Assembly (NCBI RefSeq): GCF_000013565.1
Contig: NC_007802.1
Span: 3,658,001-3,722,000, forward strand
Length of the DNA: 64,000 nt
Direction of reading: 5' to 3'
From: Jannaschia sp. CCS1
GTDB taxonomy: Bacteria; Pseudomonadota; Alphaproteobacteria; Rhodobacterales; Rhodobacteraceae
In this document: one piece after another, positions 33,896 through 41,819 of the stretch
Layout: each line of letters opens with the position of its first letter
Numbering within the stretch: the first letter of the stretch is position 1
The notes under the pieces: generated by a model
Seen by the model: the letters and a program-made list of their open reading frames with translations, nothing else
The model's database searches: none
Told to the model about the DNA's origin: nothing
Program-made: the position numbers and the translations under genes

Positions 33896-33977
33896 GTATT
33901 CGGGATGCGCCAGTTCGCGATCCCCGGCAACCCCTCTTGATCCGCGCGCGGCTCTCTGTATTCTGCCGCACGCAACC

Positions 33978-34149
33978 GTAGGGAGACTCTTGGGCGCGCA
34001 AACCACGCGCACCCCAGGGCCGAAGGAGCAACCGCCCCGGTAAACTCTCAGGCAAACGGACCTGTGGTTGTGGACATAACTCTGGAGAGTGAGGGCAGTG
34101 CCCCTCCGCCGAAGGGATAACGATCTCAGGCCGAAGGACAGAGGGGGCA
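33978..34149 (+). ncRNA. tandem glycine riboswitch
   Basis: Two glycine aptamers lie in series before gcvT. The first (about 33978-34068) contains GGGAGACTC, GCCGAAGGAGCAA and AAACTCTCAGGCAAACGGACC. The second (about 34080-34149) contains CTGGAGAGTG, GCCGAAGGGATAACGATCTC and AGGCCGAAGGACAGAGGGG. Glycine binding is known to turn on the glycine cleavage operon in this arrangement. The gcvT ribosome binding site is about 60 bases downstream. Confidence 0.95.
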
Positions 34150-39308: not shown

Positions 39309-39450
39309 GCTTTACACGGCTCCTGTGTGACGAGTGAAGGGCAAGCGTAACGAAGATTGCGCGGCAGGCAACGCGAAACATACTCTGGCACGGTGGAAAC
39401 CGGCGCGACATACTCTACGTGTTATAAGCAGAGCAAACGTGGAGGCCGGT

Positions 39451-39636
39451 ATGGCACGCTTTGAGGACATGATGAGGGATCGGGTCGACGCGATCGCGAA
39501 GGGCACGAAGATCGAGGCTATGACCGACGATCCGGACGTGCGCGAGTGGTTGGTGTTCGGTCGCATCGCCATGATCGCAACGATCTGGATGGCGATGTTG
39601 TCCGCCGTGGCTTTGGTGATTTCGGTCCGGTTCTAG
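39451..39636 (+). CDS. small single-helix membrane protein
   Basis: This 61-residue protein starts at ATG 39451 after GGAGG. The first 35 residues are soluble and charged (MARFEDMMRDRVDAIAKG), then one hydrophobic helix (about 38-58) ends at the C-terminus. No family is recognised. It is convergent with the micro-ORF pair. Confidence 0.6.
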   Translation: MARFEDMMRDRVDAIAKGTKIEAMTDDPDVREWLVFGRIAMIATIWMAMLSAVALVISVRF

Positions 39637-39712: not shown

Positions 39713-39796
39713 TCAGATTGCGGCCCAGTCCGTGAACTTGAACGGCTGTGGGCGCGGCTTGCGTTGCGTGTGTTTGGGCTGGCGAGGGGGCATCAT
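39713..39796 (-). CDS. micro-ORF A, 27 residues, paralogue of micro-ORF B
   Basis: ATG 39796 lies 5 bases after AAAGGAG. The peptide is basic and Pro/Gln-rich with the C-terminus PFKFTDWAAI then TGA. The same ending, PFRFTDWASI, is found in the ORF just upstream (39871-39966). The two differ at several synonymous codon positions, which argues for selection on the peptide. There is no signal peptide or hydrophobic helix. Confidence 0.7.
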   Translation of the reverse strand: MMPPRQPKHTQRKPRPQPFKFTDWAAI

Positions 39797-39870
39797 GTCA
39801 TCTCCTTTACGATCACAACTCTAAGGTATCGCGCGGGTGTCGTCTGTGGATGATCCACTGACTTGACAGC

Positions 39871-39966
39871 CTAGATGGAGGCCCAATCGGTGAAGCGAAA
39901 CGGCGTGGGTGCAGGTTTGCCGGGGATGGGGTTTGGCTGGCGGCGAGGCTGTGCGGGGCGGGTCAT
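39871..39966 (-). CDS. micro-ORF B, 31 residues, paralogue of micro-ORF A
   Basis: ATG 39966 is preceded by AAAGGA at a spacing of about 6. The peptide has an Arg/Gln/Pro-rich start (MTRPAQPRRQP) and ends PFRFTDWASI, then TAG. It lies 74 bases upstream of micro-ORF A on the same strand. A shared aromatic/acidic tail on a basic proline-rich linker suggests a short binding peptide. No known family is recognised. Confidence 0.7.
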   Translation of the reverse strand: MTRPAQPRRQPNPIPGKPAPTPFRFTDWASI

Positions 39967-40198
39967 CGTGTTTCCTTTTGGGGTGTGTGATTGAACTGGG
40001 TCGAACATGGCCAACCAGCCCCCTGTCACACAAAATCGCCGCGCTGATATCCGATAGCTTTGGAACTTTCCCGCGCCATTTCAGTCCCTTGGCGGAAACA
40101 TGCCTAACGGGCCTGTGCGTCGGCAGGAAATAGCGGATCTGTGATAAACTCTCCCCACTGGCGGGTCAAAACCGCCCTCAAATCACAGGGAGATCACC

Positions 40199-40979: not shown

Positions 40980-41815
40980 CTACACACGTTTCAGCGCGAA
41001 ATTTGATGCTAACTCTTCTATGCAGGCCAAATTGTGATGCTTGGCATGAAGCGAACCCCGCCCTGCTTCAATCGCCGTGACTAGTGAGTCGTACCAATAG
41101 GCCAGCAAGGCACGGCGAACGCCAGGCAACGTCAGAAATTCAGACGCGTCGCTTAAACCTCCCTCAAACTCAACACACTGCAACCTTTCCAAGGCGGAAC
41201 GATAACCGCCTTTCGCAACTCGCCCGGCCCGCGCGCGAAGCCACCTTCGTGTAGGCTTGTAATCTGAGATGAGCGGGTCGACGGCGAACATGAACACGGA
41301 AGGCGCGCCTGCACGAGGCAGTGAGGCGTATGCGACCTCATGCCGGTCAATGTTCATGGTGTAGTAGCGGCCACCCGCCGTGCTTGGAAACATCGACAGG
41401 CACCAAATCCCCTGTTGCTCCAAAAAGTTGTTGATCCCGGTGGTCCAAAGAAGCGACCGCAGCAAGTCTTGTAACTCGCCATCAGTTTGCAGCCGAGCGG
41501 CTTTGTCATAGCCTCTGATCTGTGCAGTCGGCAGAGAGCTAAGCAACTCCAACGCCTCTGACGGTGAAAGATCAAAGAGCTCTCGACAGGGCGGCATATG
41601 ACTTACGTGCGATGCGCGTACCGAACGGTGAAGAAAAGTCTCGGCTGCCATACAGTCCTCAACCTCCAGGTAGCTAACGATCTTCCATGGCGCGAAAAGG
41701 CCACAACCGAGATCTCTATCCAACTCTGCGATTCTGCGATATGGCAACGTAATGCTACGCCCGATTTTGACATAGGGACATGTCTCAGAACGCAACGCAT
41801 AGACGTAACCTCGGC

Positions 41816-41819
<4 letters not shown>
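40980..41819 (-). CDS. T5orf172/GIY-YIG-like protein, translationally coupled to ettA
   Basis: The 279-residue protein begins at a GTG that overlaps the ettA stop (GTGA). The N-terminal 100 residues (GYVYALRSETCPYVKIGRS...RIAELDRDLGC...EDCMAAETFLHRSVRASHV...RELFDLSPSEALELL) match the T5orf172/MUG113 module of the GIY-YIG superfamily, seen in phage and mobile-element proteins. The remaining 180 residues are unrecognised. Base use is less GC-rich than in ettA, hinting at acquisition. Confidence 0.75.

Follow-up and report, generated by a model that had tools for sequence, protein, structure and literature searches.

An apparently undescribed family of Rhodobacteraceae microproteins ending in a conserved C-terminal tail, with two tandem members at a cspA/dodecin locus

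The window analysed here, a stretch of 64,000 nucleotides, carries on its minus strand two small open reading frames in tandem, 74 bases apart and each with its own ribosome binding site (RBS), both present as an earlier note on this DNA had claimed. The upstream copy, ORF1 (39871-39966), has 31 codons and encodes the microprotein MTRPAQPRRQPNPIPGKPAPTPFRFTDWASI, with AAAAGGAAA as its RBS and CAAAAGGAAACACG as the sequence of the RBS region (39967..39980, minus strand), and the downstream copy, ORF2 (39713-39796), has 27 codons, encodes the microprotein MMPPRQPKHTQRKPRPQPFKFTDWAAI and uses AAAGGAG as its RBS. The true length of ORF2 is probably 26 codons, given that two ATGs stand side by side at its start and its relatives begin at the second Met. 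Both frames finish with a conserved C-terminal tail directly followed by the stop codon, PFRFTDWASI in ORF1 (39871..39903, minus strand) and PFKFTDWAAI in ORF2 (39713..39745, minus strand), and this shared tail, PF[KR]FTDWA[AS]I, counts 10 residues and not the eleven previously assigned to it. The spacer between the two frames (39797..39870, minus strand) contains the block TGTCAAGTC-GTGGAnCAnCCACAGAC, conserved in the genus Roseicyclus, besides the RBS of ORF2, and judging from this sequence it is probably ORF2's own control region, either operator or promoter; an unusual fold was looked for in the spacer RNA and none was found (z -0.92). Upstream of ORF1, at approximately 40030..40063 on the minus strand, a further conserved block, CTATCGGATATCAGCGCGGCGATTTTGTGTGACA, is a candidate promoter or operator, and a TATCGG-N11-CCGATA inverted repeat is seen in this block in several relatives. 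Rfam at its gathering threshold gave no match at the window locus. The gene order around the pair, here called type A, is ettA, cspA, dodecin(-), microORF(s), small membrane protein(-), DUF4329 and gcvP(-). The small conserved membrane protein, MARFEDMMRDRVDAIAKGTKIEAMTDDPDVREWLVFGRIAMIATIWMAMLSAVALVISVRF (39334-39636), is convergent to the ORF pair and is kept at type-A loci, with no Pfam match. In the window's genome, a T5orf172 (GIY-YIG-like) protein (40980-41819) forms an insertion between ettA and cspA, and a glycine riboswitch aptamer lies on the plus strand at 33970-34073, upstream of the glycine cleavage region.

The tandem pair is found in 13 of 13 Roseicyclus genomes, one of which has three copies in tandem. 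The strict pattern F-T-D-W-A-x-I-stop matches all 13 genomes, twice in 12 of them, with 0 matches for the control, and in the thirteenth the second copy ends in FSDWAAI; this occurrence of tail plus stop in the genus is far beyond chance. Purifying selection is concentrated on the tail of the two window ORFs, with a pN/pS across the genus of 0.14 for ORF1 and 0.08 for ORF2 in the tail vs. 0.39 and 0.35, respectively, in the body, and the bodies evolve freely in the genus, insertions included. The variable tail columns are distributed over codon positions 1/2/3 as 2/1/8 in ORF1 and 3/2/9 in ORF2. The synonymous bias formerly noticed between the two copies is therefore real, with tail changes mostly at the third codon position genus-wide, and, given that both the codon-position counts and the pN/pS values show substitutions strongly biased to synonymous sites, the selection on the peptide proposed in the earlier note stands. 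In the wider family, the serine at position -2 is written as AGY in 28 cases and as TCN in 33, a mixture most readily explained by selection acting on the amino acid and not on the DNA. A third paralogue, MPTHKPKPAKGQTPKKELPTPVRFSDWASI, is present at a separate locus in the window's genome (C2:1813376-) and is matched in 13/13 genomes of the genus, lying directly upstream of a TfoX_C gene in the copies read.

Members in other genera were found by profile search, and a named sequence collection gave 27 loci from Jannaschia, Roseibacterium, Frigidibacter, Maritimibacter, Rhodophyticola, Roseovarius and others. The pattern [FY]-x-D-W-A-x-I-stop is present in 119 of 395 Rhodobacteraceae genomes, that is, in 118 of 394 genera, at about 150 places, vs. 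1 place for the reversed pattern. Outside the family, among 289 genomes across the class, the few pattern matches are near chance level and look like chance matches, with read-through into W, overlong frames or the lack of a plausible start. After reading 121 loci, we kept 107 curated members with a median length of 43 aa, and a recognisable RBS precedes 97 of them. Start codons with an RBS close by were preferred, a choice biased towards short calls such as the 106/107 called at <=75 aa; the stop-to-stop frame, independent of the start choice, is <=100 codons in 87 of the 107. Their bodies are of low complexity, built from P/Q/K/R/A/T with few order-promoting residues and without a folded domain, as judged from composition and from an AlphaFold model with no helix or strand elements (pTM 0.17). 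The earlier description of the body as basic and Pro/Gln-rich holds for the latter part (17.5% P and 14.6% Q in the curated set), but basicity is not a general trait, with net charges from -8 to +13. The two window ORFs, having fewer than about 80 codons and ending in Phi-x-D-[WFY]-A-[SAM]-[IL] plus stop, are genuine small genes of this large family, which is conserved with its tail in more than 100 genera, is selected as peptides, consists of independent genes with their own RBS, is restricted to Rhodobacteraceae, and has several paralogous loci per genome. Of the two findings that the earlier note named as grounds for refutation, a lack of homologues with a conserved tail in related genomes and a lack of synonymous bias, neither was obtained.

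Could these frames instead belong to a conserved DNA or RNA element that merely happens to be open? Conserved non-coding blocks do flank both ORFs, but the third-position bias, the AGY/TCN serine mixture, the three different stop codons used in the family and the RBS in nearly all curated members make this explanation scarcely credible. The broader motif of the family, Phi-x-D-[W/F/Y]-A-[S/A/M]-[I/L]-COOH, is apparently undescribed, and the previous remark that no described family has this ending still holds: eight members searched against the Pfam and NCBIfam HMMs gave 0 families at E<=1, and a literature search for the tail letters returned unrelated papers only, none with the tail as a peptide. 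Searches of viral contigs gave no confirmed relative, and tblastn of plasmids with two members gave no match. A subfamily of the form MTFCTAH...PLAERR...IFTDWASI, read at six loci, has a second conserved N-terminal stretch; this form, ending in FTDWASI, is locus type C, and three of the six copies lie beside ATP synthase b-type genes (names assigned by eye).

As a safeguard against circularity, we also used a motif-free anchor, taking 30 TfoX_C loci identified by Pfam and all RBS-bearing small ORFs in the 400 bases before tfoX. Of these small ORFs, 16 out of 23 end in Phi-x-D-[WFYL]-A-[SAL]-[IL] vs. 1/168 of the small ORFs at other positions of these loci, the single exception being a true member located where tfoX was not parsed. 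The anchor set widens the motif (ITDYASL, IRDFASI, VDLASI), with D(-5) and A(-3) remaining invariant, and therefore the pattern-based counts are lower bounds. Across 126 loci, the recurrent neighbours are TfoX_C (73), Ndk (55), ABC-F (55), CspA (14), an Rrf2 regulator (13) and a metal-ATPase-like gene (13), and the commonest arrangement, type B, is microORF, tfoX, ndk(-) and a uup-like ABC-F gene. A linkage to ABC-F genes, with EttA near type A and Uup near type B, was considered and discarded, given that several type-B loci, for instance in Jannaschia, have no ABC-F gene nearby.

The frequency of tfoX among these neighbours, together with the microORF found upstream of it at 17 of the 30 sampled tfoX loci, is what one would expect if the microprotein were the dedicated partner of the adjacent TfoX_C protein. 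We consider this quite unlikely: in types A and C the microORF is distant from tfoX, tail microproteins exist in genomes with no detectable TfoX_C (two examples were noted), and the presence of the tail pattern and of tfoX shows no association among 61 genera (12/16 vs. 33/45), this lack of co-occurrence being the reason why an obligate TfoX partnership was rejected. The same neighbourhood bears on a second alternative, in which the tail, as with TnaC, would act at termination from inside the exit tunnel of the ribosome, controlling a downstream gene or the mRNA as a nascent-chain arrest peptide whose released product has no function. The invariant residues are indeed the last seven before the stop codon, preceding them the body is variable, the tail is carried by short ORFs only, and tfoX is the next gene on the same strand at 69/126 loci. 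Nevertheless, at about 30/126 loci the first downstream gene is convergent, both the window pair, which has no gene to regulate directly downstream on its own strand, and the MTFCTAH type being included; several copies without tfoX are retained at ndk or DUF4112; the gap between microORF and tfoX varies in length and sequence; and tandem duplicates exist, besides the ordinary fold of the window spacer already mentioned. The copies without tfoX and those facing convergent genes mean that the family members are not simply leaders, and for the same reasons a tfoX leader peptide was dropped as a general explanation. On balance, arrest remains unlikely as an account of the family, and the association with tfoX could reflect cis-regulation at that particular locus.

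The upstream regions of 105 loci share a tandem 11-bp repeat, YGCC(M)CAWTTY, whose EM log-likelihood is 362 vs. 112-142 for shuffles, and the GCC-N8-GCC spacing occurs 70 times vs. 28 expected, with the other GCC spacings near expectation save for a lesser excess of N9 (42 vs. 26). These two results, the shuffle test and the spacing spectrum, are the independent support for the element. Given that the position weight matrix was trained on the same pooled upstream sequences, its counts by locus type are descriptive: 44 of 64 tfoX-type loci lie above the 99% null, and 1 of 9 csp-type loci does. The GCC-N8-GCC direct repeat is thus a feature of the promoter region of tfoX-type loci. In Roseicyclus, it is also found before chvI (between pckA and chvI) and before genes for a repeat-rich surface protein, an outer-membrane-protein-like product and an ExoD-like product (names by eye), and the putative GCC-N8-GCC regulon there, which includes the microORF-tfoX operon, was read at 13 loci. 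The ChvI consensus reported for S. meliloti is N-GCC-N8-GCC (PMC9731502), and CenR recognises TGA-N8-TGA (PMC9275681); CenR was therefore set aside as the regulator, with ChvI fitting the element better. Because the repeat matches this published consensus and precedes chvI itself, we place the tfoX-type microORF in a predicted ChvG-ChvI envelope-stress regulon, a placement that does not cover the window pair: the latter has no ChvI-type site (best PWM score of 7.8 bits upstream of ORF1 vs. 9.7 for the 95% null), and the GCC spacing in Roseicyclus type A is N7, not N8. SOS box, CtrA, FnrL and RpoH promoter motifs were not enriched upstream of the microORFs.

A degron or protease-adaptor signal for ClpXP, Lon or FtsH would also agree with the C-terminal exposure of the tail, its hydrophobic last residue and the stress-type element in the promoter of the common locus; the microproteins would then be stress reporters with a short lifetime, or substrates competing for the protease. 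This we regard as distinctly improbable, given that C-terminal degrons, as generally known, are less specific than the D-W-A core and that the tail is restricted to one family, in contrast to these near-universal proteases. With somewhat better than even confidence, the best explanation for the whole body of data is that these microproteins act in trans, each by docking its free C-terminal tail into a partner. What favours such docking is that the linker is disordered, that the motif is C-terminal and carried by microproteins only, that the paralogues are dispersed under different promoters, and that all of this is confined to one family; against it, a general docking motif should sometimes end longer proteins, and no recognisable long protein ending in the tail was found among the curated cases. 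The body would be intrinsically disordered in a cytosolic microprotein of about 20-75 aa with no evident signal sequence, and would serve as a tuneable linker, while the free carboxylate and the W/I/F side chains would fit, in trans, a groove on a single conserved protein of the Rhodobacteraceae and so modulate that protein, by either inhibition or tethering. The ChvG-ChvI envelope-stress system would probably raise expression through the predicted sites at the locus type found most often, that before tfoX, and the window pair is a branch duplicated in tandem beside cspA/dodecin, under a control other than the ChvI type. The translation level, the docking, the partner and the effect are what we infer from these features, and the possibility raised in the earlier note, that of a peptide binding a partner by its tail or of a small regulatory protein, stands on the same footing.

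A more tentative extension, which we hold to be possible but on the whole doubtful, is a Rhodobacteraceae-specific signalling layer in which dozens of microproteins, both paralogues and orthologues, with differing promoters and linkers and one C-terminal code (Phi-x-D-W-A-S-I-COOH), would converge on a single hub protein. If true, different stresses, i.e., the ChvI-type envelope stress, that of the csp/dodecin locus and that of the ATP-synthase-linked copies, would report to the same target. More than 100 genera in a family of marine and photosynthetic bacteria that matters both ecologically and biotechnologically appear to carry a class of proteins absent from the annotation libraries and literature searched. 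The partner could be fished for with the invariant free tail, the conditions worth examining are indicated by the predicted ChvI sites of the common locus, and Ribo-seq or proteomic data already in existence can be screened with the search pattern.

By analogy, the microproteins would work like other proteins made of a linker and a C-terminal motif, while being members of none of the systems compared. SSB has a disordered Q/P/G-rich linker and a conserved acidic-hydrophobic C-terminal motif that docks its partners; its tip resembles the microproteins in having a variable, low-complexity, disordered linker, a short conserved motif and a hydrophobic C-terminal residue, but SSB differs in its OB-fold domain and its DIPF-type tip, where the microproteins lack any folded domain and end in D-W-A-S-I. 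Arrest or leader peptides of the TnaC and ErmCL type share with them the short ORF and the conserved residues directly before the stop, and differ in that many microprotein copies have no same-strand downstream gene and that the paralogues are both tandem and dispersed. The ChvG-ChvI (ExoS-ChvI) regulon is alike in the GCC-N8-GCC direct repeat upstream of tfoX-type loci and of chvI, but the published regulons cited here come from other orders, the Rhodobacteraceae sites are predicted, and the window pair is without the element. The DUF1127 proteins (CcaF1 of Rhodobacter sphaeroides) are likewise small Rhodobacteraceae proteins, tied to stress and to sRNAs with CCUCCUCCC loops, and some type-B loci are preceded by similar hairpins; however, the microproteins have no Pfam match to DUF1127, and both composition and conserved part differ. 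Rfam at its gathering threshold gave no match at nine type-B loci, these upstream hairpins included. The hairpins are in tandem with CCUCCUCCC-type loops and directly precede the type-B microORF in Jannaschia (L073:4780-4870) and in a Roseobacter (L096:4745-4865), and we take their loops to resemble those of the CcsR/'cuckoo' sRNAs of Rhodobacter; the Roseobacter hairpins end in a terminator-like T-run.
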